From a bacterium (lineage in GTDB: Bacteria > Patescibacteriota > Minisyncoccia > UBA6257 > MFKM01), in assembly GCA_030693325.1 (NCBI GenBank), contig JAUYAV010000011.1:65368-109602 (forward strand): 44,235 nt of DNA, in the 5' to 3' direction. Within the stretch, counting starts at the first letter, position 1. Every line of letters starts with the position of its first letter. Position numbers and translations under genes: made by a program. The notes beneath the pieces are model-generated. The model had not been told where the DNA came from. It did no database searches and saw nothing but the letters and a program-made list of their open reading frames with translations. Positions 6,891 to 31,854 of the stretch are shown in pieces.

Positions 6891-6928
6891 TACTATTGTA
6901 ATTCCACGATCGTGGAATTACAATAGTA
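6891..6928. repeat. Type A 38-bp perfect palindrome, copy A1
   Basis: Arm TACTATTGTAATTCCACGA (6891-6909) is followed with no loop by its exact reverse complement (6910-6928). It lies 2 bp beyond the trmH stop codon. On each strand it contains TTGTAA-N17-TACAAT, a possible outward promoter. The flanks AGC (left) and AATT-then-T-run (right) are shared with copy A3. No U-run follows immediately on either strand, so a classical terminator is unlikely. Confidence 0.97.
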
Positions 6929-6930
6929 AA

Positions 6931-7431: not shown

Positions 7432-7455
7432 TTTAATTTTAATCAATTTTTGATT

Positions 7456-7493
7456 TACTATTGTAATTCCACGATCGTGGAATTACAATAGTA
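7456..7493. repeat. Type A 38-bp perfect palindrome, copy A2
   Basis: This copy is identical in all 38 bases to A1 and A3, and extends to 40 bp of perfect symmetry (7455-7494). It lies 24 bp upstream of the chosen trmH ATG. Its minus-strand TTGTAA-N17-TACAAT (with -10 at 7460-7465) is correctly placed to drive trmH. Together with A1 it brackets a 603-bp unit containing only trmH. Confidence 0.97.
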
Positions 7494-7593
7494 ATGACAA
7501 TTTTAAATTAATATTTATTGATCTTTTGTTACTCCGATTTTCATATACCAATCACTATTTGAAAACAAGTCGCGGAAAAGCAATGCTAATTGT

Positions 7594-12972: not shown

Positions 12973-13010
12973 TACTATTGTAATTCCACGATCGTGGAAT
13001 TACAATAGTA
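12973..13010. repeat. Type A 38-bp perfect palindrome, copy A3
   Basis: Identical to A1 and A2 over all 38 bases. Like A1 it is preceded by AGC and followed by AATT and a T-rich stretch. It lies 224 bp downstream of the first PaaX/Cas2-like gene and about 105 bp upstream of the 12868 start. With the degenerate copy A4 it brackets an 857-bp unit carrying that gene. Confidence 0.97.
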
Positions 13011-13234: not shown

Positions 13235-13786
13235 TTAAGGTTTTATATTAAGGGTGCCTTGTTTCTCTTTGTTTACTGCGAAAATATGGATATAAGGCAA
13301 TAAATTCAATTCTTTCAGGAAATGAAAAAATTCTTCCGGCAATTGGCTGTCCCCCGTCCAAACGCTTTTCTGAAGCAAGGAAAAATTGAAGTTAATAAGG
13401 GTATTTCTTAACCAATCCCTCTTTTTCTTTTGATTTTCCGGAATGTCAAAAACTATAATCTTCAAATAATCTTTTTTCTTTTCAATGGATTTTAGGGGAG
13501 ACAAAAGTTTTTTATTTTTTAAAATTTTTAAACGCTCCAACCCTTTTGACGTCAATTTCCAAATCGTCTTTTTGTCCTCGCTTTTTTTCTTTTCAACAAA
13601 TCCCTGCTTTTGGAGCTGATAAAGAAGGTTGTGGAATTTTTGGTGTTCTTCTTTTGAGCTTTGTGACCGGCCGGAATGCGAATATTGCCGGAGGTTTTTG
13701 TAAGAAGTGTGATAATCATTAAAAACAACATTCGTTGCTATCCATTTTAAATTCCTAAGAATTTCTAAAACTATTTCTGTTGACAT
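13235..13786 (-). CDS. PaaX-like winged-helix protein with Cas2-like C-terminal domain, copy 1
   Basis: Of the 183 residues, the N-terminal half (about 1-100) is a predicted winged helix-turn-helix (LLYQLQKQGFVEKKK...IWKLTSKGLERLK). The C-terminal half (about 105-175) is a ferredoxin-like Cas2/PaaX_M-type domain with LKIIVFDIPENQKKKRDWLR (D114), FSLLQKSVWTG and LPEEFFHFLKELNLLPYIHIF. PaaX proteins are DNA-binding repressors, and Cas2 proteins are structural subunits or nucleases. No cas1 or CRISPR array is nearby, so this is not an adaptation module. The start ATG at 13786 is 9 nt after TACAAT inside degenerate palindrome A4, and perfect copy A3 lies downstream. A second homologue at 22572-23087 has the same arrangement with different palindromes. 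It may be an autoregulator or part of a mobile element. Confidence 0.8.
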   Translation of the reverse strand: MSTEIVLEILRNLKWIATNVVFNDYHTSYKNLRQYSHSGRSQSSKEEHQKFHNLLYQLQKQGFVEKKKSEDKKTIWKLTSKGLERLKILKNKKLLSPLKSIEKKKDYLKIIVFDIPENQKKKRDWLRNTLINFNFSLLQKSVWTGDSQLPEEFFHFLKELNLLPYIHIFAVNKEKQGTLNIKP

Positions 13787-13791
13787 ATGTT

Positions 13792-13829
13792 TACTATTGT
13801 AATTCCACGATCGCAGAATTACAATAGTT
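13792..13829. repeat. Type A palindrome, degenerate copy A4 over the PaaX/Cas2-like promoter
   Basis: This copy matches A1-A3 except for three bases in the right half (centre CGATCGCAG instead of CGATCGTGG, and the last base). It sits in the divergent spacer between the PaaX-like gene and the sugar transferase. On the minus strand TTGTAA (13819-13824)-N17-TACAAT (13796-13801) ends 9 nt before the PaaX-like ATG. On the plus strand TTGTAA (13797-13802)-N17-TACAAT (13820-13825) points at the sugar transferase. It is a plausible promoter-operator. Confidence 0.9.
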
Positions 13830-16690: not shown

Positions 16691-17881
16691 TCAAGATTGA
16701 TTCTTAAAATTACTAATGGCCTCAATAATTCTTTTGGCCGCTTTCCCATCGCCATAGGGATTTTGATCCTTTATCATCGCATTATAAGTGTTTTTATCAT
16801 CCAACAAATTTAAAGTTTCATTAATAATCTTTTCCGAACTTGTTCCTACTAATTTAGATGTTCCCGCCTCAACTCCTTCCTGCCGTTCCGTGTTTTCCCG
16901 CATAACCAGCACAGGTTTCCCCAGAGATGGGGCTTCTTCCTGTATGCCTCCTGAATCCGTAAGAATAAAATAAGAAATGCCCATCAAAAAAATAAATTCA
17001 TCATATTCCACCGGATTAATCAAATAAATATTAGGGCTATCTTTAAGCATTTCCCGCGCCAAATGCTGGACATTCGGATTGGGATGAACCGGATAAATAA
17101 TAACCACATCTTCCCGCCTTTTAACAATTTCTTTTATGGCGGAAAAAATATTCCTTAGCCCTTCTCCGAAGCTTTCTCTGCGGTGGGCCGTTAATAAAAT
17201 TATTTTTTTGTTTGTTTTTAAATCAATCTTATATTTATCTTTGAATATTTTTACGTAATTTTCCCGCATATTTTCTTCAGATTGCCTGTTTCTGACAAAC
17301 AGCAAAGAATCAATTGCGGTGTTGCCCGTTAATATAATATTGCTTTTTGATATTCCTTCTTTTAAGAGATTATCCGCGTCTCGCTCTGTCGGCGTAAAAT
17401 GAAGGTCGGCCAATCTTGAAATAAGCTGGCGGTTCATTTCTTCGGGGAAAGGACTGTATTTATTGTATGTTCTTAGCCCGGCTTCTATATGAGCTATGGG
17501 TATTTTGAAATGAAACCCAAGGAATGCGGCAAGAAACGCCGTTGAGGTATCCCCTTGGATAATCAGAAGGTCTGGTTTTTCTGTTTTTAAAATTCTTAAA
17601 AATTTAATTAATGAAAATCCGGTGTTGATTAGACTCATTGCTTTCTTGAATATATTGATATTTTTACCAAATAAGGCCTTATCATTAAGCGTAATTTTAA
17701 GATCATAATCGGGGGTTATTTTAAAAACCCTCAAAACCTGATTAAGCATTTCTTCATGTTGCCGAAAAACGCAAACTATACCATTTAAGGAAGGAGTGTT
17801 TTTTATTTCATTTATTAATGGGGCGAGTTTAATCGCTTCGGGGCGCGTTCCAAAAATTATAAGAATTTTTTTTGTTGGCAT
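16691..17881 (-). CDS. wecB: UDP-N-acetylglucosamine 2-epimerase (non-hydrolysing)
   Basis: This enzyme interconverts UDP-GlcNAc and UDP-ManNAc for surface glycans. Family signatures are IFGTRPEAIKLAPLI at the N-terminus, HIEAGLRTYNKYSPFPEEMN, LLTAHRRESFGEG, and ILTDSGGIQEEAPSLGKP with MRENTERQEGVEAGT. I choose the ATG at 17881 (396 residues), which begins MPTKKILIIFGTRPEA and leaves a 4-nt gap to the upstream gene. A TTG at 17902 would add 7 residues and overlap that gene. It is the last gene of the minus-strand run 16691-20739. Confidence 0.93.
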   Translation of the reverse strand: MPTKKILIIFGTRPEAIKLAPLINEIKNTPSLNGIVCVFRQHEEMLNQVLRVFKITPDYDLKITLNDKALFGKNINIFKKAMSLINTGFSLIKFLRILKTEKPDLLIIQGDTSTAFLAAFLGFHFKIPIAHIEAGLRTYNKYSPFPEEMNRQLISRLADLHFTPTERDADNLLKEGISKSNIILTGNTAIDSLLFVRNRQSEENMRENYVKIFKDKYKIDLKTNKKIILLTAHRRESFGEGLRNIFSAIKEIVKRREDVVIIYPVHPNPNVQHLAREMLKDSPNIYLINPVEYDEFIFLMGISYFILTDSGGIQEEAPSLGKPVLVMRENTERQEGVEAGTSKLVGTSSEKIINETLNLLDDKNTYNAMIKDQNPYGDGKAAKRIIEAISNFKNQS

Positions 17882-17885
17882 TTTT

Positions 17886-19097
17886 TTAAAATAAATTTTC
17901 AAATTTTCTCAAACAAATATCCTTGGTAAAATTAGCAAGAAGATATTTAAACCCATTATCACCGTATTCCCTTAGTTTATTCTTTTCCTGATAAATTTTC
18001 AAAACGATATCCAGGGCTTTTTTATCATCATCAGAAATTGCGCTAAAACCGCATTCGGCCTCTTTGACAATCCTATGAATGTCGCTTTCTTTGTGGACAA
18101 AAGCGATAACCGGGATGGCGGCGGCCATATACCCCAGAAGCTTTGCGGGAACCGCCGGCGTGGTATTTTTTGCGCTTAAACTTATCAGTCCCACATCCGA
18201 ATCTTTCGCAAGCTCCGGATAATCCTCTTTGGAAACGAATGGTTGAAAAATGACATTATCAAGTTTGTAATTTTTTACTAATTCCAATAGTCGATTTTTA
18301 TCCGAACCGTCGCCGACAAGAAGAAAACAGATCTCTTTATTATCTTTCAATTCCAGAGCCAAACGGACAATCAAATCAAGGCCCTGTGATGGGCCCAAAA
18401 CGCCCGCAAAGAGAAAAATAAATTTATTTTCCAAACCGTATAATTTTCTGAATTTGCCGCTTTTTTTCGCATTTTCAAATGGCTTGGTATCTATCCAATG
18501 CGGAATAACAAACACTTTTTCATCAGAAATTCCCCTTTGTTCCTTCAAAAATTTTTTGTGCTCTTCGGAAGGCACCGCAATCGTATCGGCATTTTTATAG
18601 GCATCTCTTTCCATGCCCTCAAAAAATTTTATCAAGGGCTTATTTGTCAGAATGCCCAAATCAACCGCATTTTGAGGAAAAAAATCATGAAGATTCAAAA
18701 TATACTTTGCCTTATAAATCTTTTTTATTTTGTGAGCGGTCATTGTCAAAGGCAAAGGCGGACTATGTAAAATGACAACATCAAGCTTATCCTTTATATT
18801 CTTTTTAATGGCGTGAAAAAAAATATACGGCATTGTCAATTGGGCTATGCCCCTTATGACAAAATTAGCCTTATGGTGCGGCAGGGTTTTTATTCTTAAA
18901 ACCCTTATGCCGTTTTCATTTGAAATCTTCGGCCAAACAATGCTTTCGGAATCCGCCAAATTATATTTAGGATAAGAAGTGGCGACAAAAACATTATGCC
19001 CTTTATCGCGCAGCCCATCAGCTAAATCTTTCATCAATTGCGCAGCAGAACGAATTTCCGGCGGATAAGAATCCGTAATAATTAAAATATTTTTCAT
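17886..19097 (-). CDS. Glycosyltransferase family 4 (WbuB-like)
   Basis: A 403-residue GT-B retaining glycosyltransferase. The N-terminal acceptor domain starts NILIITDSYPPEIRSAAQ. The C-terminal GT4 domain includes FLFAGVLGPSQGLD, ILVGDGSDKNRL-type residues and TPAVPAKLLGYMAAAIPVIA, with the donor-binding region near VKEAECGF. The N-terminal layout resembles WbuB/WcaI-type transferases that use aminosugar or fucosamine donors, but the exact sugar is unknown. It sits immediately upstream of the UDP-GlcNAc 2-epimerase gene, whose product or a derivative could be its donor. It is probably cytosolic or peripheral to the membrane. Confidence 0.88.
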   Translation of the reverse strand: MKNILIITDSYPPEIRSAAQLMKDLADGLRDKGHNVFVATSYPKYNLADSESIVWPKISNENGIRVLRIKTLPHHKANFVIRGIAQLTMPYIFFHAIKKNIKDKLDVVILHSPPLPLTMTAHKIKKIYKAKYILNLHDFFPQNAVDLGILTNKPLIKFFEGMERDAYKNADTIAVPSEEHKKFLKEQRGISDEKVFVIPHWIDTKPFENAKKSGKFRKLYGLENKFIFLFAGVLGPSQGLDLIVRLALELKDNKEICFLLVGDGSDKNRLLELVKNYKLDNVIFQPFVSKEDYPELAKDSDVGLISLSAKNTTPAVPAKLLGYMAAAIPVIAFVHKESDIHRIVKEAECGFSAISDDDKKALDIVLKIYQEKNKLREYGDNGFKYLLANFTKDICLRKFENLF

Positions 19098-19116
19098 TGT
19101 TAAAATGGGTTAACGG

Positions 19117-20739
19117 CTATTTAAAATAATTTGAGAATCTTTCTTTGGCTCTTTCGTATTTATCGCCCCATCCTTTCATTACCCGAAGCTGTTCCTCAAG
19201 ATCCAACATCAATTTTGCCGAAATGAGAATTGACTCTATGGAATCCCCCTCTTCGTTGTTCGCTATTTTTCTGCCTATTGTCCGGTACATATCCCTGTAG
19301 CTGTTCGTTTTGAAGATTCTCTTTTTTCTGATTATTTTATGATTATCTTCGGACTGGTATTTTATAGCATCTGTTATTCTCACGTTTCTTCCATAAACCT
19401 TTAGCTCCACGTGATCTCTCGGCCCTACTCTTGAGGTGCCTTTTTCACTGAAAGTCGTAGTGAAGGCCGCGCCGTTTTCAAGTTCTATCCATACTTCAAT
19501 GGAATCATCCTGTAAGAGCTTGATATTGAAATTTTTCGGTTTGCTGAAATTATTAAGATGAAGAAAATGGTCAATCTGATGGCAACCGTTCGCAAGAAAA
19601 GTGCTTCTTGAAACCGGCCAGTTGTACCAAAAAAATTCGGGTTGAATTAATTCATAAACTATTGAATGATACGAAATCGGATCGCCATATTTTACGCCAA
19701 GGTCTTTAAGGGCCATTTTGTTAAATATTCCGTAACGCTTGTGAAACCCGACAAAAAAACGCCTGCCGACTCTTTTAAGGACTTCTTCCAACTCATTTAG
19801 TTCGTCATAGTCCATAACAATCGGTTTTTCTTCCATAACATACGCTCCCTGATTTAAGGCATGCGAAACTATTGGGAAATGAGTATGGTTGTAGCTGGCA
19901 ACGAAATAAACATCATGTTTTTCATCTTTTCCCGGGAAAGGCGACGAGTCCCATTTTTGGACTCTCCGTTCTAAAAATATTTGCGTTGGGTCAATTTCGT
20001 GGACTGATTTTATGTCTACAAACGGCCTGGTGTAAGGAAGGATATTGATTTTTGCGTAATTACCATAACCGAACAAAACTCCGCTCTTTTTTTTGGAGTT
20101 TGTCTTTTTGATTTGGCCTTTCGTTTCTAACACTGGACTCGCGTCTCGCGCGTCAATTTTTTGAGATTCAAGCCATGTATTATTTTCAATCTCCTTTTTC
20201 AATCCATCCGCCAATCCCCTTTGTGTTTCCTCGGAAATTTCTATTCCCGAATAAATGCTCCACCCTTTGATATTTTTCCACCAAACATTTTGTGATTCAT
20301 TTTTTTTAACCGGAGAATATAAAATTGTATCCGCCGGTATTTCGGGGATGCCTGATTTATCAATTTTAAAAATAAGTTCTTTAGGCAAGACAACCCGTTC
20401 CACAAGAGCCGGATGTAAAGGAGCTACGAAACCGACCAATTCTCCTTCGGGAAAACTTTGATTATCGGCGCTTTCAATAATTTTTCCAAAACCGCAGGAA
20501 ATATATTTTTCATTGCGCCTGTCTTCTCTGATTCTGGACCAAATTTTTGTAAATAATCCCTGGGGACCGACAACGGGAAAATAATTAATCAGCAACCTTA
20601 AGCTCTTGGGTCTCGTGTGATAAACATTTTCAAGTTTTTCAAGATTTTTCCAAGTCAAAACTTGAATCCTGTACTCATTTTTGTTTCGGCAGTAATCCAA
20701 AAAACCGCCCAGCCATTTTTTCCCCGTAAGTATTCTCAT
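19117..20739 (-). CDS. Gfo/Idh/MocA-family oxidoreductase with N-terminal alcohol-dehydrogenase-like segment
   Basis: The 540 residues contain a Gfo/Idh/MocA NAD(P)-dependent oxidoreductase in the C-terminal part: the Rossmann motif VLFGYGNYAK near residue 220, the EKP motif in YVMEEKPIVMDYDEL, and GCHQIDHFLHL with the catalytic His region. Residues about 1-210 are not typical of the family; YISCGFGKIIES...GELVGFVAPLHPALVERVVLP resembles the GroES-like part of medium-chain (zinc) dehydrogenases. It probably oxidises or isomerises a nucleotide or lipid-linked sugar in the glycan pathway. The N-terminal part seems to lack a full second Rossmann domain, so it may be a remnant of a longer MDR-Gfo/Idh fusion. 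Confidence 0.8.
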   Translation of the reverse strand: MRILTGKKWLGGFLDYCRNKNEYRIQVLTWKNLEKLENVYHTRPKSLRLLINYFPVVGPQGLFTKIWSRIREDRRNEKYISCGFGKIIESADNQSFPEGELVGFVAPLHPALVERVVLPKELIFKIDKSGIPEIPADTILYSPVKKNESQNVWWKNIKGWSIYSGIEISEETQRGLADGLKKEIENNTWLESQKIDARDASPVLETKGQIKKTNSKKKSGVLFGYGNYAKINILPYTRPFVDIKSVHEIDPTQIFLERRVQKWDSSPFPGKDEKHDVYFVASYNHTHFPIVSHALNQGAYVMEEKPIVMDYDELNELEEVLKRVGRRFFVGFHKRYGIFNKMALKDLGVKYGDPISYHSIVYELIQPEFFWYNWPVSRSTFLANGCHQIDHFLHLNNFSKPKNFNIKLLQDDSIEVWIELENGAAFTTTFSEKGTSRVGPRDHVELKVYGRNVRITDAIKYQSEDNHKIIRKKRIFKTNSYRDMYRTIGRKIANNEEGDSIESILISAKLMLDLEEQLRVMKGWGDKYERAKERFSNYFK

Positions 20740-20784
20740 AATGCTATTAAATCACAATTAACGAAAAAAGTTAATTAATTATTT

Positions 20785-21615
20785 TTATTTCTTTCTGCCG
20801 TATTTATCCTCAAATCTTATGATATCGTCTTCTTCTAAATAATCGCCGCTCTGAACTTCAATTATTTCCAAATTCTTGCCGGTCGGGTTTTCCAACCGGT
20901 GTTTGAAACCGATCGGAACATCAAAAGTTTGATGCGGATTCAAGTTAAAAATTTTTTCGTTTAAATTCACTTTCGCCTTTCCTTTCAAAACTACCCAGTG
21001 CTCCGCTCTTTTATGATGAAGCTGCAAACTTAATTTCTGTTTCGGCTTCACTAAAATATTTTTCACTTTAAAGCCATTCCCTTCTTCAATAACTCCAAAA
21101 TACCCCCAGGGCCGATGGACTTTAGCTTGCAGCTCATTAACGCATTTTTTTAAAAGCCATGAGCTGGACTGGATTTTCCCGCCTGGCCCGACATTAAAAA
21201 CCATTTTACAATTAATTTTTTCACAAACCGCCACTTCGGGAATATTCTTTTTGGTTCTGTCGCCGCCGTTGGCAAAAATATCAGGCCGGATTTTTTTTAA
21301 TTCCCCGGAAACGCTCATATCAGCCGGATTTTTAGGATGACCGGTCAGAATCACTTTATCAACGACTGCCAGCGCTTTTAACAATTCCCTTCTCTCTTTC
21401 TGGGGCATAAAAACAAATCCCTTCTTCTTCATCAGCCAATTATCGTTATTCAAGATAACGACCAGTTTGTCGCCTAATTTTTTTGCCGTTTCAAAAAGCC
21501 GGATATGTCCGATATGGACCGGGTCAAACCCTCCGCTGACAGCGACAATCACCGGTTTTCTATTTTTTCCGGCATTTTTCATAAAGTTTATTTTCTGATT
21601 TATTTTTAATTTCAT
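20785..21615 (-). CDS. Nucleotidyltransferase-cupin fusion (RfaE/TagD-like plus ManC-type isomerase domain)
   Basis: The N-terminal domain (about 20-160) is a cytidylyltransferase-type fold with SGGFDPVHIGH (H34, H37), the ANGGDR strand and a QSSSWLL motif like the ISSS motif. The C-terminal domain (about 165-270) is a cupin of the mannose-6-phosphate isomerase type II family: HRPWGYF, then QLHHKRAEHWVVLKG with candidate metal ligands H200/H201, E205, H206, and H239. Normally this cupin follows a GDP-mannose pyrophosphorylase domain; here it follows a different nucleotidyltransferase fold. It may make an activated sugar or sugar-alcohol. It overlaps the upstream GT2 gene by 56 nt from ATG 21615; ATG 21582 is an alternative. 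Confidence 0.85.
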   Translation of the reverse strand: MKLKINQKINFMKNAGKNRKPVIVAVSGGFDPVHIGHIRLFETAKKLGDKLVVILNNDNWLMKKKGFVFMPQKERRELLKALAVVDKVILTGHPKNPADMSVSGELKKIRPDIFANGGDRTKKNIPEVAVCEKINCKMVFNVGPGGKIQSSSWLLKKCVNELQAKVHRPWGYFGVIEEGNGFKVKNILVKPKQKLSLQLHHKRAEHWVVLKGKAKVNLNEKIFNLNPHQTFDVPIGFKHRLENPTGKNLEIIEVQSGDYLEEDDIIRFEDKYGRKK

Positions 21616-22384
21616 AAATCTTGGAGTCCACTAGAAAACGATACCAAAAAGCGTGCAAGAAATGGAATATCATACCTTCTTTGCCGTCAAGAAAACCGAG
21701 AAGGAAAAAATACCGATAAACAAAATAGAGAAACGGCCGGCAAAAAAGCGGCAGATTGTAATAAAAAACCCTCTTTTTTTTATCGCCATAATTCTCCTTA
21801 ATCGCCTCTTTCGCTTCCCGCGAAGAATAATTATTATGTTTTTCAATCCACCAAGTTAAATCTTTTTTATTATCGTCAATGAAATCATTTTCCAATTTCC
21901 CGGCTTGACCGGCCGATAAAATAATGTGTTCGTCCATTTCTCTTTCTTCGGAGCGCGCTTTCCCGTTTTTAAAAAGCCGCAAAATCCAAGTCGGATAATA
22001 ACCGCCGTGCTTTATCCAGCGGCCCATAAAATATACGCGCCGTTTTATGCAGTAGCCGTTTATATTATCGGATTCGTTTTTTAGTTTTTCAGTTATTTCA
22101 GCTTTCAATTCTTCGGTCAGATATTCATCGGCGTCTAAACGCAAAATCCAGTCGTTTTTTATTTTCAAATTATCCAGAGCCCAGTTGAATTGTTCGGCCT
22201 GATTAACAAAGGAATGTTTTACGATATTCAGAGTATATTTTTTGGCGATTTCCAAGGTTTTATCACTGCTGAAAGAATCAACAATAATAATTTCACTCGC
22301 CCAGCCGGCGATGCTTTTAAGGCAATTTTCAAGATTCAATTCCTCGTTATAGGTTAAAATAATTACCGAAATTGGAAGTTTCAT
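21560..22384 (-). CDS. Glycosyltransferase family 2 (WaaE/KdtX-like)
   Basis: A 274-residue inverting GT-A transferase. The start PISVIILTYNEELNLENCLKSI and EIIIVDSFSSDKT are typical, and the donor-metal motif lies in ILRLDADEYL. The C-terminal part contains aromatic stretches (YFFLLGFLDGKEGMIFHFLHAFWYRFLV) that may contact the membrane, as in the WaaE-like group which adds glucose or similar sugars to core glycans. The next gene overlaps it by 56 nt. It starts the 20785-22384 operon after the inserted PaaX/Cas2-like unit, and a good promoter lies at 22442-22471. Confidence 0.88.
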   Translation of the reverse strand: MKLPISVIILTYNEELNLENCLKSIAGWASEIIIVDSFSSDKTLEIAKKYTLNIVKHSFVNQAEQFNWALDNLKIKNDWILRLDADEYLTEELKAEITEKLKNESDNINGYCIKRRVYFMGRWIKHGGYYPTWILRLFKNGKARSEEREMDEHIILSAGQAGKLENDFIDDNKKDLTWWIEKHNNYSSREAKEAIKENYGDKKKRVFYYNLPLFCRPFLYFVYRYFFLLGFLDGKEGMIFHFLHAFWYRFLVDSKIYEIKNKSENKLYEKCRKK

Positions 22385-22441
22385 AATTCATCTGGAAAAT
22401 TTCTTTAATTCCCGAAAATTAACACTAATTAGCTTTTAAGA

Positions 22442-22471
22442 ATTATACATCTTTGCCGTTAATGCCGTCAA
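22442..22471 (-). promoter_or_regulatory. Putative promoter of the GT2/nucleotidyltransferase operon
   Basis: Minus strand: TTGACG (22466-22471), 18-nt spacer, perfect TATAAT (22442-22447), then 57 nt to the ATG at 22384. It lies just downstream of palindrome B1, so the operon restarts after the inserted unit. The leader has no strong Shine-Dalgarno. Confidence 0.5.
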
Positions 22472-22488
22472 TTTTTTAAGTTTTCTGC

Positions 22489-22534
22489 ATATTTATATAC
22501 ACTTCTTGCGACCGCAAGAAGTGTATATAAATAT
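22489..22534. repeat. Type B 46-bp perfect palindrome, copy B1
   Basis: Two exactly complementary 22-nt arms (22489-22510 and 22513-22534) enclose AC. The core is TTATATACACTTCTTGCG and its complement. It lies 37 bp beyond the stop of the second PaaX/Cas2-like gene, mirroring copy A3 beside the first one. The sequence is unrelated to type A arms. Confidence 0.97.
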
Positions 22535-22571
22535 AAAACCGCGATCTTTTTTTCTATCTTAATAATTTATC

Positions 22572-23087
22572 TTAATTGCTGCTAACTATATCTTCTTCCG
22601 TGGCTTTAAAAAACCTTAAATATGGCAAAAGATTGGTATCGCTTAAATATTTTATGAATTCTTTGGGCAACGGCGCCGGACCAAGCCAAACGCTTTTTTG
22701 TAAAAGAATAAAACCCAAAAGCGTCAATTCTCCCCTCAACCAATTTCTCTGCTTTTTTCTTATTTCAGGAATATCAAAAATAACCACTAGCTCTTTCTTT
22801 TTGTTTTTAATTTTTAAATGTCCGAAGTGGGGAATTTTAGAAATTAATTTATTTTTTAAAAATTTCCTTCCTTGTTTAGTAATCGCCCAAATGCCATTTT
22901 TATTCTCTACTAAACCCCGTTTTTTAAGACGGGATAGAGTTATCCTCAAAGTTTGCTCTTTTAATTTTTGATAATCTATTCTTTTTAGTATAGGAACATC
23001 TTCCCAGCCCCTCATTCTTTTCCGTAACAATTTATAGCCGCCTGAATAATCGGTTAAAACAATAAGTAAATCATCTAATAAACTCAT
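22572..23087 (-). CDS. PaaX-like winged-helix protein with Cas2-like C-terminal domain, copy 2
   Basis: A 171-residue homologue of the 13235-13786 protein, clearly diverged. Its N-terminal winged helix includes TLRITLSRLKKRGLV, IWAITKQGRKFL. The C-terminal Cas2/PaaX_M-type domain has LVVIFDIPEIRKKQRNWLRG (D105), FILLQKSVWLGPAPLP and LLPYLRFFKATEED. The match between the two copies is strongest in this domain (FDIPE, RxWLR, LLQKSVW, LLPY). It interrupts an otherwise continuous glycan operon and is bracketed by type B palindromes (B1 downstream, degenerate B2 at the promoter). A TATAAT at 23097-23102 ends 9 nt before the ATG. It may be a self-regulating repressor or a component of a palindrome-bounded mobile unit. 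Confidence 0.8.
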   Translation of the reverse strand: MSLLDDLLIVLTDYSGGYKLLRKRMRGWEDVPILKRIDYQKLKEQTLRITLSRLKKRGLVENKNGIWAITKQGRKFLKNKLISKIPHFGHLKIKNKKKELVVIFDIPEIRKKQRNWLRGELTLLGFILLQKSVWLGPAPLPKEFIKYLSDTNLLPYLRFFKATEEDIVSSN

Positions 23088-23097
23088 ATTTATATTA

Positions 23098-23135
23098 TTA
23101 TATACATTTTAAACGATCGCAAGAGATGTATATAA
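23098..23135. repeat. Type B palindrome, degenerate copy B2 over the second PaaX/Cas2-like promoter
   Basis: The 38-nt copy keeps the outer arms TTATATACAT (23098-23107) and ATGTATATAA (23126-23135), and the right inner part CGCAAGAG like B1. The left inner arm has diverged (TTTAAACGA instead of TTCTTGCGA). It lies 10 bp upstream of the ATG and overlaps the -10 box. The centre CGATCGCA is also found in degenerate copy A4. Confidence 0.85.
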
Positions 23136-23258
23136 AAACAATATTATTTCGTTTCATTTGTTTCGTCTGTTCCGCTGATATTTGATATATTTAAATTTTT
23201 CTGGCACGAATAATCAAATAGGCGCCGAAGAAGAATTATTTTTTCAAAAAATCTCATA

Positions 23259-24449
23259 TTAATTAATAATTATCTTTTTATACTCCCCTATCATCTCATC
23301 AGCCACTTTGTCTATGTCGAATTTTTCTCTGATTAATCTTTGGGCGTTTTCTTTTATGTTTTGACGAAGCATTTTATTGTTTAAAAGATTATCTATTGCT
23401 TCTGCCAACTGAATAGGATTGCAAGGCGCAACAATGCCGGCGCGATTATTGCTTATTTCCCGATGTATTCCGACACCATCGCTTATAATCGTTGGCAAAC
23501 CACAGGCCATCGCCTCAACCACGGCCATTCCGAAATTCTCGGAATAAGAAGGAAGAGCGAATATGTCGCTTCCGACATATGCTTCCAGCTTTTTCCTGCC
23601 GGTAAGCATGCCGGCAAACGTCAGTTTGTCCATGACTTTTTCGTCTTCAAACCATTTTTTGACTTTTGCTTTAAAACTTTCTTCGCCGTCTCCGACAATT
23701 AGAAGATGAACATCGTCTCTTTTTTGGACGACTAAGCCGTAGGCCTTTGCTAAGATATCCAAACCCTTTTTCCAGTTTAAACGGCTTAAAAACAAAATTA
23801 CTTTTTTATTTTTCAATATCGGATAACTATTTACCAAATCGCTTTTTAAAGGCAAATTAACGAACTCGGACAAGTCAATTCCGTTGGGAACAACAAACGC
23901 TTTCTTGTTTTTTAATTTCAGGAATGAATTGGTTTTTTCAAATTCATCCCGCGCAGTGTAGTGGATAGATGCCGCGCTCTCCAAATCTTTTTTGGCAATC
24001 AATTCGTAATAAAGCCTTTTTTTCCAACCCTTTTTGTTGAAAGTGTAGGAATAAAGCGTTCCTCGGGGAGCAATAATATAAGGCTTCCCGTATTTTCGGC
24101 AATAATGAGCGGCGACGGCAGTCGGATAATTCCAAACCGCCGACAAATAAACGAGATCAAAATTATTTACATTTTTTTTCAAGGCCCGGGTTAAAGGCCG
24201 GGAAAATTGCCAGCCGTTCGGACCGACAAATTCAAAAATTTTGGAGAAATTGAAATAAATCACTTTCACGCCGTCAACGTTAATTTCCTGCCCTGTCGTA
24301 ACCTTTCCGGCTAAACCGATATTAGTGGTGTAAACCGTCACGTCAGCGCCTTTTTTAACCAAGGCTTTATTTAAATTATGGACGGAAGCGATAGGACCGC
24401 CGAACTTAAAGGCCGGATAATACGAGGGTATGACGCAAAGAATTTTCAT
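23259..24449 (-). CDS. Glycosyltransferase family 4
   Basis: A 396-residue GT-B enzyme with an acceptor domain (ILCVIPSYYPAFKFGGPIASVHNL) and a canonical GT4 donor domain: PNGIDLSEF, VILFLSRLNWKKGLDIL, LLIVGDGEESF, and PSYSENFGMAVVEAMACGLPTI with the E-x7-E nucleotide-sugar site. It transfers an unknown sugar in a retaining reaction on the cytosolic side of the membrane. It overlaps the upstream epimerase by 4 nt (ATGA), so both are co-translated. Downstream, the palindrome-bounded PaaX/Cas2 unit separates it from the next GT2 gene. Confidence 0.9.
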   Translation of the reverse strand: MKILCVIPSYYPAFKFGGPIASVHNLNKALVKKGADVTVYTTNIGLAGKVTTGQEINVDGVKVIYFNFSKIFEFVGPNGWQFSRPLTRALKKNVNNFDLVYLSAVWNYPTAVAAHYCRKYGKPYIIAPRGTLYSYTFNKKGWKKRLYYELIAKKDLESAASIHYTARDEFEKTNSFLKLKNKKAFVVPNGIDLSEFVNLPLKSDLVNSYPILKNKKVILFLSRLNWKKGLDILAKAYGLVVQKRDDVHLLIVGDGEESFKAKVKKWFEDEKVMDKLTFAGMLTGRKKLEAYVGSDIFALPSYSENFGMAVVEAMACGLPTIISDGVGIHREISNNRAGIVAPCNPIQLAEAIDNLLNNKMLRQNIKENAQRLIREKFDIDKVADEMIGEYKKIIIN

Positions 24450-25375
24450 AAATTATTTAAATATTTTTTTACTCCTTCTTGAAAACTGATTTTCGGTTGC
24501 CATTTAAGAATTTTTCTCGCCCGAGAACAGTTCAGAGCAATCCGGTTAACTTCGCCTTTGCGGAAAGGAGCGTAAATCGGCGGTTTTTTAAATTTAAGTT
24601 CCCGGGCCAAAGTGTCAAAAACTTTTTGGTCGGCGGTTTCTTTGCCGCTACCGAGATTTAAAATCTCATTTTTCCCTTTTTTAAGCCCCAGAACATTCGC
24701 CTCAACAATGTCGCCGACATAGACATAATCGCGGGTTTTGCCGCCGTCGCCGAAAATCGTCGGCCGGATTCCTTTTTTCATCAATCCACTGAAAATAGCA
24801 ACCACCCCGGCTTCTCCTTTCGGATTCTGCCGCGGCCCGTAAACGTTGCCGCAGCGCAAAATCAGATAATTGAAATTATGATTACGGGCGTAAAATTTCA
24901 CTAATTTCTCTCCGGCTAATTTGGAAATCGGATAAGGTGATAGTGGGTCAACCGGAGATTTCTCGGTGGCTAATGGTTTTTTCTGTCTGCCGTAAACCGT
25001 GCCGCCGCTTGAAATAAAAATGAATTTTTTTATGCCGACTTTGGCTCCGGCCAATAAAACATTTGCCGTTCCCAAAATGTTTACCTGATACGTCAAAGTG
25101 GGATCTTTAAGAGATTTAATAACCTCGGCAACGGCCGCGTAATGATTAATGATTTGGGGTTTTTCTTTTTTAAAAATTTTTTCCAGCAACGGCAAATTTC
25201 TGATGTCGGCTTTGTAAAATTTCGCCCGCTTATTCAGATTTTTCTTGAAGCCCGTTGAAAAATTGTCTATAACGACAACTTTATAACCAAGGTCAATATA
25301 CTTATCAACGATATGACTTCCTATGAATCCCGCACCACCGGTAAAAATAATTTTTTCGGAAAATTTTTTAACCAT
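24446..25375 (-). CDS. NAD-dependent sugar epimerase (GalE-like extended SDR)
   Basis: An extended short-chain dehydrogenase acting on a nucleotide sugar, probably a 4-epimerase of UDP-glucose type. Visible motifs are the NAD-binding FTGGAGFIGSH, the Ser region ISSGGTVYG, catalytic YPISK (YxxxK) and the substrate-binding RCGNVYGPRQNPKGEAGVV. I choose the ATG at 25375 (about 309 residues), which reads MVKKFSEKIIFTGG; an upstream TTG at 25387 is less likely. It is coupled to the downstream GT4 gene by a 4-nt overlap, suggesting it supplies that enzyme with its donor. Confidence 0.9.
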   Translation of the reverse strand: MVKKFSEKIIFTGGAGFIGSHIVDKYIDLGYKVVVIDNFSTGFKKNLNKRAKFYKADIRNLPLLEKIFKKEKPQIINHYAAVAEVIKSLKDPTLTYQVNILGTANVLLAGAKVGIKKFIFISSGGTVYGRQKKPLATEKSPVDPLSPYPISKLAGEKLVKFYARNHNFNYLILRCGNVYGPRQNPKGEAGVVAIFSGLMKKGIRPTIFGDGGKTRDYVYVGDIVEANVLGLKKGKNEILNLGSGKETADQKVFDTLARELKFKKPPIYAPFRKGEVNRIALNCSRARKILKWQPKISFQEGVKKYLNNL

Positions 25376-25392
25376 AATAATTTTCAAAAATT

Positions 25393-26508
25393 TTAAGAAG
25401 TATAATTATTACGATGATAAGCAATTTGTTTCTTGATGAAAGACCTGACTCCCATCAAGCAAGGAATTCTTTTTAAGAAAGGCTTAAGACGCTCAAAATT
25501 ATTTAGATATCCTCTTTTTTTTATATTTGCTAATTTTTGCAGATGCCGCTCATAGGTCGTCGCGCGTCCCAAAAAACCCGAGGTGACAAGATCACGAAAT
25601 TTATCCATATTTATTTTTTCGGAATCAGTGATAATTTTGTTTTTAAATGCCGTATCAATAAGTTCTATGGCGCAATCAGGCAAACGAAAAACCTCAAACA
25701 AGGAAGCGGCTTTTAAAATTCTGGTTTCGTCCCAGTCGGATAGTAATATTTTTTTATTTTCTATTTCAGCCACGGGGTCTCGAAAAAATATTGCCTGACC
25801 CAAAACAATTTGGCCATAGTGAGCCGTACCGCCGGCAAAAGGAGCCACGCTATCTATGCCAGGAAACGACTTTTTCGCATAGCGATACAGATTTAAATCG
25901 TATAACTTAAAACCAAGGGGTCTTAAAAATTGCTCTATCTCGCTAAATCCCCTGCCCTCCCCGCGCCAAGGCGCAAAAAGAACCTCACAACTGATTCCGA
26001 GAACTGACTTTTTAAGTTGATTAACAGACCCTTTAAGAATATCAAGATCGGCCCCTTCGGCATCAATCTTCATGAAATCAATATCAGGGATATTATAATC
26101 TTTAATAAAAGAATCAAAGTCGGTGGTATGAATAATTGACGTTTTTCTAATTTTAAGGTTTTCTTCATCCGGAAAACGGCTTACAATTTTTTGATCCGCA
26201 GGGTAAAGACCTGAAGCAGCCGACGCCTGATTGTGATAGAAAACATAAGAACCTTTATCTTTGTAAAGAGCAACCGGGTAAAACCTGGATTTTGACTCGG
26301 GATCTAAGGAGTTATTTAACCTTTCGCACTCCTCTGGATCCGGCTCAAAACCAACAAATCTAACCGCATTGCCGTAATTGGTCCAGTGGTGTTCAGGCCC
26401 ACCGCGGCTACCGACATCAACGACAGCCAAGGAACGATTTTTTAAAATCTCATTTTTAACAAGATATTTAGTAAATCGAGGGTTAGGCGCGAATGATGAA
26501 TAAAACAT
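25393..26508 (-). CDS. FkbM-family methyltransferase
   Basis: A 371-residue protein with a SAM-dependent FkbM-type domain: VVDVGSRGGPEHHWTNYG (SAM loop), FVGFEPDPEECERLN, and DIDFMKIDAEGADLDILKGS, the family's signature acidic motif. FkbM enzymes O-methylate sugars or polyketides; here a sugar hydroxyl of the surface glycan is the likely target. The C-terminal about 120 residues form an extra helical region of unknown role. It lies between an aminotransferase gene upstream and an epimerase gene downstream in the same minus-strand run. Confidence 0.87.
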   Translation of the reverse strand: MFYSSFAPNPRFTKYLVKNEILKNRSLAVVDVGSRGGPEHHWTNYGNAVRFVGFEPDPEECERLNNSLDPESKSRFYPVALYKDKGSYVFYHNQASAASGLYPADQKIVSRFPDEENLKIRKTSIIHTTDFDSFIKDYNIPDIDFMKIDAEGADLDILKGSVNQLKKSVLGISCEVLFAPWRGEGRGFSEIEQFLRPLGFKLYDLNLYRYAKKSFPGIDSVAPFAGGTAHYGQIVLGQAIFFRDPVAEIENKKILLSDWDETRILKAASLFEVFRLPDCAIELIDTAFKNKIITDSEKINMDKFRDLVTSGFLGRATTYERHLQKLANIKKRGYLNNFERLKPFLKRIPCLMGVRSFIKKQIAYHRNNYTS

Positions 26509-26542
26509 TTAATTTATAAATAAATTCGGCAGTCCACCGCTC

Positions 26543-27685
26543 TTATGAGCAATCGTATGCTTTCACTTTGTCAATAATATATTTTATTTGATCTTCGGTT
26601 AGGTCTCCATGAATAGGGAGAAGAATCACGTCTTCGTCGGCACGCGCGGTTACCGGGATATCATCGCGTTTCCCTCCGAACATCGGGTAAATATCATTTC
26701 TCCGATTATTGATTTTAACCATAATTTTATGGTCATGCATATGCTTCGCGAATGCAGAACGATCAACCACATGGACAGGAAAAATCTGATAATTCGGTTC
26801 TCGGTCGTTATAGTAAGTAAGTAACTTCACTTTCTTGCAATCCGCAAGTTCTTTTCTGTACCTTTCACCAATTTCCTTCCTTTTCTTAGCAGGCTCATCG
26901 AAATGATCCACTCCAGTACAAGCTAAAGTGGCGACGATGTCATTCATATTGTACTTGAAGCCCAGCTTTTCACCCTTGAAAGACGGCGGAAGCGGATCAA
27001 TAAAATTTGGTTCTTTATCTTCTCGGTCTATGCCGTACCAAATGATTTTTTTTAGATCTTTATAATAATCTTCTCTCTCAGTGACAATAAGTCCACCATC
27101 CCCGGAATTAATGATTTTAACCACTTGGAAAGAAAAACAAACAATATTTCCCGTAGCTCCAATGTATTTCCCTTTGTATTTGCTTCCAAGCGCGTGAGCA
27201 GAATCTTCAATAAGTGGAAGGTTGTGTTTCTTGGCGATTGCTCTTATCTCATCCAGGTCGCATGGGTTTCCGCCGTAGTGTACGATTGAGATTGCTTTTG
27301 TTCTCTCTGTTATTCTCTCTTCTATGCTTTGCGGATCTATATTCAGGTCGTCATACCGAATATCAGCAAACACCGGCTTGGCTCCTTGTTCCAAAATAGC
27401 GGTGTTGGTAGCAATAAACGTGAAAGGAGTGGAAACTACCTCATCTCCGGGACCAACGCCAAGCATTGCCAGACTCGCTCGTAACGCGGATGTGCCGCTG
27501 TTCACCGCGACGCAATACGGAAACCCCCACCTTTTGCAGGCTTTCTCGCGCAATTCTTTCTCTCGGGGACCAGTGTTAATCCATTTAGAGCGTAGTGTTT
27601 CTCCTACTCTTTCAATAGCTTCCTCCGGAACAAAAGCTCCCCATGGCCGGATTTCATCTCCAATCTCATAATCTTTTTTTAGCAT
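26543..27685 (-). CDS. DegT/DnrJ/EryC1/StrS-family sugar aminotransferase
   Basis: A PLP-dependent aminotransferase that adds an amino group to a keto-sugar nucleotide. The 380 residues include NSGTSALRASL (phosphate cup), DSAHALGSKY with D161 for the pyridine nitrogen, and FSFQVVKIINSGDGG with the PLP lysine K190. A typical N-terminus (EIRPWGAFVPEEAIERVGET...WINTGP) is present. The keto sugar may come from the 4,6-dehydratase (Gmd) pathway, giving a perosamine-like sugar, although pairing is not certain. The codon usage and style of this gene and the next two differ slightly from neighbours, hinting at transfer as a block. Confidence 0.92.
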   Translation of the reverse strand: MLKKDYEIGDEIRPWGAFVPEEAIERVGETLRSKWINTGPREKELREKACKRWGFPYCVAVNSGTSALRASLAMLGVGPGDEVVSTPFTFIATNTAILEQGAKPVFADIRYDDLNIDPQSIEERITERTKAISIVHYGGNPCDLDEIRAIAKKHNLPLIEDSAHALGSKYKGKYIGATGNIVCFSFQVVKIINSGDGGLIVTEREDYYKDLKKIIWYGIDREDKEPNFIDPLPPSFKGEKLGFKYNMNDIVATLACTGVDHFDEPAKKRKEIGERYRKELADCKKVKLLTYYNDREPNYQIFPVHVVDRSAFAKHMHDHKIMVKINNRRNDIYPMFGGKRDDIPVTARADEDVILLPIHGDLTEDQIKYIIDKVKAYDCS

Positions 27686-27708
27686 AAGTATATTTTATTT
27701 AATTATAA

Positions 27709-28518
27709 TCAAGACTTTAACGAAAGCAACTTGCCGCTGGAAAGAAAAAATTCTTGAAGATACTCTTCCGAGGTCTTTAAAGGATATATCCCCCCAAGTT
27801 TTTCAACATTCATTTCATATATCTGCTTTTCGACCCCACTATCCGGCGGAACAATACTTCCAATATACTTTGTCATATTTTTTAATAGGAAGGTTCCACG
27901 CCCACCGACATTATAAATCTCATTTTTCGACAATCGCCCCAAAAGATACTGAACAATATTGGCAATCTCTTCAGTAGTCACCAACTGAATTTGAGAATCA
28001 AGCCCCACAAAAGGTTTCTTCCCGCAAAGAATATCAAAAATAGGGCCTTTTTTGAGTCCTGTCCCCAGAATTGCAGCTGAACGTAAAATCAAATAATTAC
28101 TCTTACATCTTCGCACAATTAATTCTCCCAGATGTTTATGAAAACCATAGGGGGAAAGTTTTTGAGGATCTATAATCCTGTCCTCCTTCGTTGACCCCGG
28201 GTTTGAATAATCCTCATAAACATCCGGGGAAGAAATAAAGACGTACATTCCAAAACTAAAATCAAAAAGACTCTTGTAAACGGAGAATGTTGATTTCTCG
28301 AAATCCTCAAGTGGATGCTCATTAGCCCAAAATCTTTTACTGTTCCCGTTGGCATTGATAACAACATCATAATGCTTCCCTCGGAACGTATCATAATTCT
28401 CTCGGGTTATTCCATCTACTTTATAATTTTTTTGCAAAAACCGGACCAAATCCAACCCCAGCAGGCCCATGCCCCCGATAACTCCTATCGTTTTTTTTTG
28501 ATCAATACGAACGGACAT
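27709..28518 (-). CDS. NAD(P)-dependent epimerase/reductase, extended SDR family
   Basis: A 269-residue short-chain dehydrogenase relative with GVIGGMGLLGLDLV as NAD(P)-binding motif, FISSPDVYEDY as the Ser region and SPYGFHKHLGE as YxxxK. It lacks the long C-terminal region of GalE or Gmd, which suits RmlD-like 4-reductases or small epimerases. Its N-terminus (MSVRIDQKKT) precedes the motif. It starts 2 nt after the stop of the Fcl-like gene. Together with the aminotransferase and that gene it likely completes one deoxy- or aminosugar branch. Confidence 0.85.
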   Translation of the reverse strand: MSVRIDQKKTIGVIGGMGLLGLDLVRFLQKNYKVDGITRENYDTFRGKHYDVVINANGNSKRFWANEHPLEDFEKSTFSVYKSLFDFSFGMYVFISSPDVYEDYSNPGSTKEDRIIDPQKLSPYGFHKHLGELIVRRCKSNYLILRSAAILGTGLKKGPIFDILCGKKPFVGLDSQIQLVTTEEIANIVQYLLGRLSKNEIYNVGGRGTFLLKNMTKYIGSIVPPDSGVEKQIYEMNVEKLGGIYPLKTSEEYLQEFFLSSGKLLSLKS

Positions 28519-28520
28519 AC

Positions 28521-29444
28521 TTAAATTATGCTTTTGTAATAATGGATCGTATTTTTAATGCCTTCTTCAAGAGAGGTAAATTTAAAATCCGGGTATTTTT
28601 CACGGAATTTTCTGTCATCCAGTATCTTGAAAGGAGCACCATCGGCGTATTTAGTATTAAAAGAAAACTCAACATTGTAGTTTAGAATTTCCGCGGCTAT
28701 CTTTGCTATCTCCGCTATGGAGTATGCTTTGTTTTGAGCAAAGTTGATCGGGTAAACCTGTTCTTCTATTTCGTTGATTGATTTAACCAATATCTTGGCC
28801 ACGTCCTTTATGTAAACCCATTCCCTGGTTGGTTTGCCGGACCCCCAAATTTCAAATTGTTTTTCTTGGGTTCTTTGAGCCTTAATCATTCTTATTATTA
28901 TTCCGTTTAAAGCGTGAACTTTATTCGGATCAGTATAGTCACCGGGGCCATAAGCATTGGCAATCAGCCAATTTACTGTTTTTACGCCATACTGCTTGCG
29001 ATAACATTCAGATACAGCATAAATCATTCTGCGAACCGAAGCATAGGCCAACACCGAATCATGCACTGGCCCTTTTTCCCAATCGGGCTCGTAATGGGTA
29101 TTAGCTTCGCCGGAATAAGAGCAATTAGAGATTGGGTTAATTATTTTTGCTAGAGGGCAGACCGCTGTCACCCCTTTATAGATGTTCAACACTATACGCA
29201 TATTATCGTCTATCACGTCACCCGCGTATTGAGCCACATAATGAATACCACCGACATGAGCGGCGCAATTAATAATTGTGTCGGGATTTATTTCTTTTAA
29301 TCTTCTTGAAAAATCCTCCAAAATCCGAATATCCGTACCCTCGTGGCGAGACAAAGAGAAAACTTCATAATTTTCTTCTTTAAGAGCTTCCACCACGTGC
29401 TGGCCAAGAAATCCATTTCCACCCAAAATTAGTATTTTTCGCAT
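28521..29444 (-). CDS. GDP-L-fucose synthase-like epimerase/reductase with Y-x3-R in place of Y-x3-K
   Basis: The 307 residues align by eye with the GDP-fucose synthase (Fcl/WcaG) group: ILGGNGFLGQHVV, AAHVGGIHYV, ANAYGPGDYTDPNKVHALNGIIIR and WGSGKPTREWVYIKDVA. Such enzymes convert GDP-4-keto-6-deoxymannose, the Gmd product (gmd at 43085-44104), to GDP-fucose. The catalytic lysine of the YxxxK motif is replaced by arginine (Y134-A-S-V-R138; codon CGC seen directly). The Ser region reads SNCSYSG. The enzyme may therefore be altered in specificity or act as epimerase only. The start ATG at 29444 fits the Rossmann start. Confidence 0.85.
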   Translation of the reverse strand: MRKILILGGNGFLGQHVVEALKEENYEVFSLSRHEGTDIRILEDFSRRLKEINPDTIINCAAHVGGIHYVAQYAGDVIDDNMRIVLNIYKGVTAVCPLAKIINPISNCSYSGEANTHYEPDWEKGPVHDSVLAYASVRRMIYAVSECYRKQYGVKTVNWLIANAYGPGDYTDPNKVHALNGIIIRMIKAQRTQEKQFEIWGSGKPTREWVYIKDVAKILVKSINEIEEQVYPINFAQNKAYSIAEIAKIAAEILNYNVEFSFNTKYADGAPFKILDDRKFREKYPDFKFTSLEEGIKNTIHYYKSII

Positions 29445-29463
29445 ATACCTAAATTATACCTGA

Positions 29464-30630
29464 TTATCCATTAGCTTTAAAACGCCCTTCCGAATCCAAA
29501 AAATTTTCCTGAGTGAATACAAAAGATTTTCCTACGTTAGTTTTCGTAAATTTTCTTACGACGAAATCAAAACAACGGCCTAGAGTCATCGAAACCGAAT
29601 AAATCACCGCCATCGTGATTTCAAAAAACGAGAGTTCGCCGAAAAAATCATAAATCAGTTTCTTGCTTTCTTTTATATTTAAAAAAGACAAACGAAAACC
29701 GCATTGAAAAAAACCGATAAATGACGCTGATAATACTTGAGCTCCCATAAAAATCTTCATTTTCGGATAAAATCTTGGCCATTTAAGCTTATAAATATAT
29801 TTGTATATAAGAAAATAGTAATAAGATTTTTTAAAAACTTCAGATAATGAATTTTGTTTAAGAGGGATATAGCTATTATCCGAGTGCGCGATTTTTATAT
29901 AATTTAACGAATTATCAAAAATAAAACTTTTATATCGGGTAAGAACTTCCGTAAACAATACTGAATCGATACCGAACGCCCTCCTGAAAAACTCTCTTAA
30001 TTCTTCCGGAACGGATTTAGATGGATTATGATAATAATTTTCAACAAAATACTCCATGGCGCTCACGAAATCCTTACTCCTCACTAACGCAAACCCACTT
30101 ATGTAAAGATGCGTCGGTCGGTATATGCGTCTTATAAACCATTCGGCCGAGCGCGTTCCCGGAGAAAAATGTTCTCGGCAGTCAAATGTAAAGATGCCAT
30201 TATCGCCATGTTCAAACAAAGCTGTTAAATCCGGCACCACGCCGGCGATGTCAGGATGTCTCAAAAAGGCACGCACTCCATTTTCTATATAATCCCTCGC
30301 AAGCCAATCATCTGCTCCCATCATCATGGCAAAATCTCCCTTCGCAAGCTTGGACATTTTCAAAAATCCCTCCGCGACGAATCCCTTACTATTTAAAACA
30401 TTAGCTCTTTTGTCGTTTCTGAAATATTTTACTCTGGAATCTCGCGCCATATATTCCCTTACCACTCTCTCGCTGTCATCGGTACTCGCGTCATCAACTA
30501 TCACTATTTCTATATTTTTATATGTTTGATTCAAACAACTTTCAATAACCCTGTGGATATATCTTCCTGCGTTAAAAAATGTCGTACAGATACTCACCAG
30601 TGGATTTTTATCTGATGCGCTTTTATCCAT
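29464..30630 (-). CDS. Glycosyltransferase family 2
   Basis: An inverting GT-A transferase of 388 residues with N-terminal PLVSICTTFFNAGRYIHRVIESCLNQTYKNIEIVIVDDASTDD-type residues and the metal motif in MMGADDWLARDY. The C-terminal half has hydrophobic and amphipathic segments (about 285-360) that may dock it to the membrane. The donor and acceptor are unknown. It is the first gene of the long minus-strand run ending at 16691 and lies divergent from the plus-strand epimerase at 30766. Confidence 0.88.
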   Translation of the reverse strand: MDKSASDKNPLVSICTTFFNAGRYIHRVIESCLNQTYKNIEIVIVDDASTDDSERVVREYMARDSRVKYFRNDKRANVLNSKGFVAEGFLKMSKLAKGDFAMMMGADDWLARDYIENGVRAFLRHPDIAGVVPDLTALFEHGDNGIFTFDCREHFSPGTRSAEWFIRRIYRPTHLYISGFALVRSKDFVSAMEYFVENYYHNPSKSVPEELREFFRRAFGIDSVLFTEVLTRYKSFIFDNSLNYIKIAHSDNSYIPLKQNSLSEVFKKSYYYFLIYKYIYKLKWPRFYPKMKIFMGAQVLSASFIGFFQCGFRLSFLNIKESKKLIYDFFGELSFFEITMAVIYSVSMTLGRCFDFVVRKFTKTNVGKSFVFTQENFLDSEGRFKANG

Positions 30631-31716: not shown

Positions 31717-31764
31717 TTCAGCTTCGGCTGTATGCTTTAAACCACTATCGCAACTGTGATAAGC

Positions 31765-31801: not shown

Positions 31802-31854
31802 GTATTTACAAAAATTACCCAGCGGACAACAGCTAAACGCAACCACAACTGGAC

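Follow-up and report, generated by a model that had tools for sequence, protein, structure and literature searches.

We report that a compact unit in a Patescibacteria genome, in which a gene for a winged-helix and Cas2-fold protein lies between two palindromes, is explained best, and with modest confidence, as a gene-palindrome system resembling REP/RAYT. Most genes of this family are paired with two copies of a palindrome, the palindromes are scattered in some genomes, the class of their core matches the phylogeny of the protein, their symmetry is kept at the DNA level, and the protein keeps its active-site residues. We tentatively propose that such units make up a novel kind of selfish or domesticated DNA that is driven by palindromes and widespread among Patescibacteria, in which a winged-helix (wHTH) Cas2-fold nuclease would recognise, cut and propagate its own perfect CNATNG-core palindromes, as an independent analogue of REP/RAYT.

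A palindrome-bounded gene fills the only large gap of a glycan operon

The window (the whole stretch of 44,235 nucleotides that was analysed, G000:C11:65368-109602) comes from a source genome, G000, of 661 kb in 25 contigs that is 96% complete. The type B gene (22572..23087, minus strand) encodes a 171-aa winged-helix and Cas2-fold protein that matches PaaX_M, a Cas2-like domain, in Pfam (E 2.3e-15), with Asp105, Gln130 and Ser132 as predicted catalytic residues. Downstream lies B1 (22489..22534), a perfect 46-bp palindrome with core CGACCG, centred about 60 nt past the stop codon and made of two perfect arms of 22 nt each and a 2-nt spacer. B2 (23098..23141), a degenerate copy with core CGATCG, lies immediately upstream of the start codon and is 77% identical to B1. 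As single-stranded DNA, B1 folds at -18.5 kcal/mol (z -11.8; 0/200 shuffles equally stable) and B2 folds poorly (-4.4).

An earlier note, made from the sequence alone, had described a PaaX/Cas2-like gene bounded by type B palindromes and set between two glycosyltransferase genes in a tightly packed same-strand run, and both descriptions are borne out. Pfam identifies the downstream gene as GT2 (21560..22384, minus strand) and the upstream one as GT4 (23259..24449, minus strand), and the unit occupies the sole large gap of the packed glycan run, the gap with the type B gene measuring 874 bp while the remaining gaps of the same-strand run 16691-30630 are at most 46 bp. The note had also read a promoter in the sequence TTGACG-N18-TATAAT between B1 and GT2 (22442..22471, minus strand). 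The sequence is there and matches 11/12 positions, as a consensus match only, but promoter-like sites number 6 in the type B region and 4.6 +/- 2.5 in its shuffled versions. A weaker promoter-like match (23122 to 23094; 9/12) is overlapped by B2. Rfam gave a single chance-level match on 21500-24500 (24.8 bits vs a 135-bit cut-off, E 0.057), which we rejected. Elsewhere in the window, a perfect stem of 16 bp closed by a 7-nt loop at 31764-31802, just past the ORF 30766-31716, looks like an ordinary terminator.

The setting recalls a compact insertion element, a gene with palindromic ends, that would have reached its place between GT4 and GT2 by a recent jump. We consider this improbable: the unit does sit in the only long gap of a packed operon, but an element that needs matched ends is not expected to show, soon after jumping, an end as degenerate as B2. 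The combination of one perfect and one degenerate end, which the earlier note had described for its proposed insertion, is a common state among the pairs described below and no sign of a recent insertion.

Palindrome pairs accompany the gene family across Patescibacteria

PF20803 (PaaX_M) is present in 113/200 genomes of the order and in 90/286 genomes drawn across the phylum, with named homologs in Ca. Wolfebacteria, Jorgensenbacteria, Liptonbacteria, Zambryskibacteria and other Patescibacteria. The open frames of the family are mostly 165-250 aa long. Among the matches listed, we examined 113 genes with their flanks (30, plus 3 from the source genome, plus 80 more), following the order of the list and skipping a few, so that weaker matches are under-sampled. 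For the 108 genes with enough flank, the upstream side was aligned with the downstream side and compared with a control of 2967 mismatched pairings: 84 genes scored beyond the control's 99th percentile, and 9 exceeded its maximum.

A strict test for palindrome pairs (36-mers with at least 22 identical positions, both palindromic; even-centred palindromes within 350 nt) was passed by 87/113 genes, a count in which genes near contig ends are kept in the denominator and odd-length palindromes (e.g. L119) are missed. Contig ends, palindromes of odd length or wrongly placed starts account for at least some of the 26 genes without a strict pair; two genes of the source genome, L002 and L003, failed the test with pairs visible by eye. 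In an independent second set 26/42 genes passed (19/31 among genes new to the analysis), compared with 0/79 control ORFs from the same loci. A phylum-wide draw gave 12/30, the misses including most of the longer frames (240-280 aa). The palindrome-gene-palindrome layout recurs in three paralogs of the source genome and in dozens of relatives. The earlier reading of a compact unit stands in this part; the insertion into a GT4-GT2 operon that it also proposed is the less likely part.

The position of the copies is regular, the upstream one being centred a median of 48 nt before the start codon and the downstream one a median of 53 nt after the stop. Such an upstream site, together with the overlap of B2 with its weak promoter-like match, would suit a PaaX-like transcription regulator whose palindromes are operators, serving autoregulation upstream of the gene and a dispersed regulon elsewhere, with neither movement nor cutting. 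This reading, the main rival of the REP/RAYT-like one, seems to us unlikely on balance: the downstream copy is placed just as regularly and is perfect more often, with 18/18 arms in 41/87 downstream copies against 24/87 upstream ones.

Several PaaX_M frames carry in-frame stops (places in G414, G259, G223 and G466; G187:C20), indicating that decayed copies exist. Among viral contigs, 106 stretches matched the peptide pattern and none encodes a relative, and a search of 50,697 phage records for relatives gave no match. Plasmid matches are only actinobacterial sequences, several of them annotated as PaaX regulators, and carriage on phages or plasmids was rejected. PADLOC and PHROGs returned Cas2-like and generic regulator matches only.

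Palindromes keep their symmetry and follow the protein tree

The symmetric span of the palindromes reaches about +/-18 bp from the centre (~36 bp; range ~36-46 bp). Their sequence differs from gene to gene, with a CNATNG-like core common to most: in the consensus half-site, position -3 is C (93%), -1 is mostly A and -4 is often G, positions -9 and -10 are nearly only A/T, and the left arm is G-poor from -8 to -16. The most frequent cores are CGATCG (27), CTATAG (14), CCATGG (13) and CATATG (9), followed by rarer ones, and some copies are bordered by an A-run or T-run. Mapped on the protein tree, with 87 labels assigned by script, core class requires 28 changes, compared with a mean of 50.4 in shuffles, and 0/200 shuffles are as low.

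Comparison of the upstream and downstream copies of a gene gives 122 position pairs with a difference in both arms, where independent change of the arms would give 28.4, and 88 of these 122 are still paired in both copies. A dispersed palindrome at orthologous places of G163 and G169 (L280 1235, L281 1651) shows a symmetric double change, and its flanks are 88% identical. A hairpin function at the RNA level was tested and rejected: the comparison of G.U with A.C showed no bias (mismatches G.T 76 vs A.C 61, p 0.23). In view of the lack of a significant G.U excess, the symmetry of the palindromes appears to be kept at the DNA level. Perfect copies, as single-stranded DNA, form hairpins with a four-base loop that is the inner core, and this hairpin form is a possible substrate.

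The protein keeps a Cas2-type active site behind a winged helix

In the alignment of 113 proteins, Asp105 and Ser132 are each present in 113/113, Gln130 in 109/113 and Arg114 in 104/113. A profile search of the PDB aligned the active-site stretch with Cas2 6jhz (E 0.0066), among PadR, Cas2 and other entries at E 0.0015 to 0.1; phmmer against the PDB returned nothing useful. The type B protein was modelled by AlphaFold2 (pLDDT 86.6, pTM 0.58), and matches listed by VIA assign its N-terminal half to a MarR/PadR-like wHTH. The VIA list is filled by this half (mostly model residues 1-84) and therefore says little about the Cas2 half. Foldseek gave no match at E <= 0.001, with PadR, Cas2 and PaaX at E 0.002 to 0.1. 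According to one study, the equivalent Asp has a central part in the catalysis of Cas2 and VapD nucleases, and mutation of Q33, Y34 and S35 slightly reduces the activity of Sso_Cas2 (PMC10491678).

A wHTH domain of the MarR/PadR type is what a regulator would carry, but the Cas2 Asp, kept throughout the family, is lost in four/four actinobacterial PaaX regulators, which have Ser in its place, no Q.S motif and no palindrome pair. The TIGR02277 (PaaX) scores of 20.5 and 24.7 bits fall far below a cut-off of 264.55, and the PaaX_M domain score of 56.9 bits lies above a cut-off of 24. By model score or active site, the family is not a PaaX regulator. Nor is it, by cut-off, a CRISPR Cas2: the type B protein scores 19.1 vs 24.5 bits with a Cas2 model, and the type A protein 24.3 vs 24.5 and 23.2 vs 23.8. 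Neither the type A nor the type B protein has a Pfam match to Y1 transposase at E <= 1, and the low-entropy columns of the 113 proteins include no conserved His. We picture the family as a palindrome-binding Cas2-fold protein, probably a nuclease, that would regulate its own gene and help to spread its palindromes.

Some palindromes are dispersed between genes

The source genome has three PaaX_M genes (types A, B and C), each with a palindrome of its own on either side, and the palindrome centres of all three types are CGATCG, CGACCG or its reverse complement. The type A paralog (13235..13786, minus strand; 183 aa, PaaX_M E 5.3e-13) has a perfect palindrome downstream (12973..13010) and a degenerate one (89%) just upstream (13793..13828). 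The type C pair, read by eye, lies at 1438-1475 and 2073-2114 of L003. With up to 3 changes allowed, the type A palindrome occurs at 17 places in 661 kb, 12 of them exact, and its reversed control at 0. The relaxed type B pattern (up to 3 changes) finds B1 and B2 only, with 0 sites in 661 kb for the reversed-pattern control; type B is confined to its own pair, and dispersal of palindromes is thus not universal.

Exact-pattern searches with up to 3 changes, six genomes per search, found dispersed copies in other genomes. The palindrome of L027 has 9 copies in G133, that of L032 has 5 in G073 and that of L074 has 3 in G161, each with 0 copies in the five other genomes searched, and the palindrome of L066 (genus g70) has one additional site in G163 and two additional sites in G169. 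Copy numbers are low overall, from 2 to 17 per genome. In genus g70 we also noticed a separate REP-like family of GC-rich inverted repeats (CATTCCCGCG..CGGGAATCC; L066 ~300-340 and 508-576), present in dozens of copies.

We examined 15 type A sites in the source genome and 3 in its congener G001, the one other genome of the genus that was compared. All 18 are intergenic, 13 between co-directional, 4 between convergent and 1 between divergent genes. This preference for joints between mostly co-directional genes, with the A-run/T-run borders of some copies, could indicate DNA-architecture or termination elements. The palindromes would then serve as hairpins, or as boundaries with protein bound to them, where operons join, and the protein would be a nucleoid or insulation factor. 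We hold this to be very improbable, since the type B unit received no terminator-like call, RNA pairing shows no bias, and gene-specific sequences with fast turnover at one locus (see below) are unexpected for a housekeeping boundary. Nor do the dispersed sites favour a regulon: their distances to gene starts are scattered, and the four between convergent genes count against operators. By eye, no target-site duplication was evident in 16 type A flanks.

A gene for a SpoU methyltransferase (6931-7446) has a dispersed type A palindrome on either side (6891..6928 and 7455..7494). The interval 6891-7494 holds a gene of the SpoU family, not PaaX/Cas2-like, bracketed by type A palindromes, as a possible composite or a chance pair. 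Within this gene, a 24-bp palindrome, GGCACTATCACGCGTGATAGTGCC, lies in frame at 7102-7125, and it recurs in an rsmA-like ORF (L003 740-771), adding the peptide GTITRDSA in both unrelated genes; the syntenic SpoU gene of the congener is without it. This palindrome resembles the in-frame palindromic elements of Rickettsia. Beside SpoU in the congener, at L139 ~1990-2065, a ~20-bp inverted repeat lies within an apparent partial duplication of the SpoU start.

Synteny fits both relocation and vertical descent

The congener carries about 10 type A palindromes at 79-100% identity by BLAST, most above 93%, compared with 69-81% for syntenic genes. Two type A sites are common to both genomes at orthologous places (L017/L157, L018/L155); there the palindrome is nearly unchanged while its flanks are 78-83% identical. 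Conservation of this kind is what a regulator would predict, but neither of the type A copies flanking SpoU is present beside the syntenic gene of the congener. That genome has no PaaX_M match at E <= 0.001, and the only PaaX relative found in it, cut by a contig end, adjoins a different palindrome; type A palindromes are thus common there although its PaaX relative is associated with another.

The earlier note had suggested looking in relatives for a locus with GT4 and GT2 directly adjacent. In the congener, an RNase-P-RNA-like sequence comes after GT2, together with an RNase H-like ORF; the relative of GT4 lies on a different contig, beside a methyltransferase-like ORF (names from reading the sequences). 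With GT2 and GT4 unlinked, the congener offers no empty GT4-GT2 junction to inspect. The insertion-element reading gains from the lack of a unit at GT2 in the congener and from the position of the nearest homologs among unrelated genes, but no empty GT4-GT2 site was found, and orthologous genes of family f22 stay in place.

The nearest type B homologs (50-60% identity) have no flanking genes in common with the window, which fits relocation. More broadly, any flanking homology was detected in 23/160 pairs of homologs with 50-70% protein identity and in 3/6 pairs with at least 70%, on flanks compared over at most 1.5 kb, so that some synteny may be missed. Relocation seems to be frequent on the time scale of 50-70% identity. 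In family f22 (L025, L036, L037, L040, L042 and L043), flanking genes are shared in many pairs. Here the gene stays at one locus, which fits vertical descent, while both its palindromes change together, the cores being, in that order, CTATAG, CTATAG, CATATG, CTATAG, CGTACG and CCATGG. The orthologous type A sites and the stability of the f22 locus indicate that part of the pattern is vertical.

A precise empty site was found for no unit in comparisons with the congener or within genus g70. In the g70 attempts, G150 was rearranged, and G078 was without palindromes and its junction had diverged. The place of one G169 palindrome is taken up by 2.9 kb of other genes in G150 and by 1.5 kb in G078, and G163 gave no match to the flanks, which is not diagnostic.

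A model for the spread of the palindromes

From the layout and the conserved residues, we infer that a dimer of the protein would bind the palindrome symmetrically, with the wHTH domains on the arms and the Cas2-like dimer over the CNATNG centre. Binding at the upstream copy, which would overlap the promoter, could lead to self-repression. The Asp-dependent Cas2 centre may cut or nick the palindrome, perhaps when extruded as a hairpin or cruciform, and repair or re-ligation after cutting would let palindromes spread into intergenic sites; the same process might occasionally move the gene with its two palindromes. The nuclease and spreading steps are the weak part of this model, and a pure regulator with a scattered regulon is the chief alternative to it.

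If these proteins are the partners of the dispersed palindromes, a second, unrelated protein fold has yielded REP-like intragenomic elements, in notably small genomes. Domain models label the family merely PaaX-like or Cas2-like, and where these genomes are annotated with a 'PaaX regulator', the label may be mistaken. For decoding the recognition rule, about 90 proteins with their matched DNA are at hand, core class tracking the protein tree, and the family would allow a direct test of Cas2-type active sites outside CRISPR. An analogue of REP/RAYT derived from the Cas2 fold, if true, might illuminate the role of Cas2-like proteins beyond CRISPR.

Comparison with known systems

We found no paper joining PaaX/Cas2-like genes with flanking palindromes in the literature searched, most subscription journals and bioRxiv lying outside that search. 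Regulators of the PaaX type (TIGR02277; E. coli PaaX, PDB 8a39) have a similar layout, a wHTH followed by a Cas2-like domain. They differ in length, the frames here being mostly 165-250 aa as opposed to 285-303 aa in the four PaaX regulators, and in that the family has kept the Cas2 Asp and Gln/Ser and has flanking palindrome pairs, while the four regulators are without both.

With the nucleases Cas2, VapD and BPSL1038 the family shares a ferredoxin-like fold in which an Asp ends strand 1 and the turn that follows carries a Q.S motif. Unlike them, it is fused to a wHTH, and the type B protein falls below the Cas2 cut-off; as far as seen, the genes accompany palindromes rather than a CRISPR or toxin-antitoxin setting.

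Elements of the IS200/IS605 type consist of a small ORF with hairpin-forming ends. The protein here is unrelated to theirs, and the ends are full, long palindromes.

The closest likeness is to REP/RAYT. In published descriptions, RAYT genes are always flanked by two REPs, co-evolve with them and correlate with REP abundance (PMC2817692), and RAYTs act by HuH chemistry on single-stranded REP (PMC8266576). The family agrees with these descriptions in three respects: an ORF between two palindromes (87/113, 26/42 and 12/30 genes; controls 0/79), dispersal of the cognate palindromes (17, 9, 5 and 3 copies in four families and genomes), and co-evolution of gene and palindrome with genome-specific sequences, seen here as the agreement of core class with the protein tree. 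The differences are as clear. RAYTs are HuH proteins related to IS200, whereas the family combines a winged helix with a Cas2 fold and has no Y1/HUH match, and its palindromes are ~36 bp long and centred on CNATNG. Classical REPs reach high copy numbers, above 100 per genome, compared with 3-17 in the four dispersed families. In layout the family looks like a REP/RAYT system, and its protein is not a RAYT.
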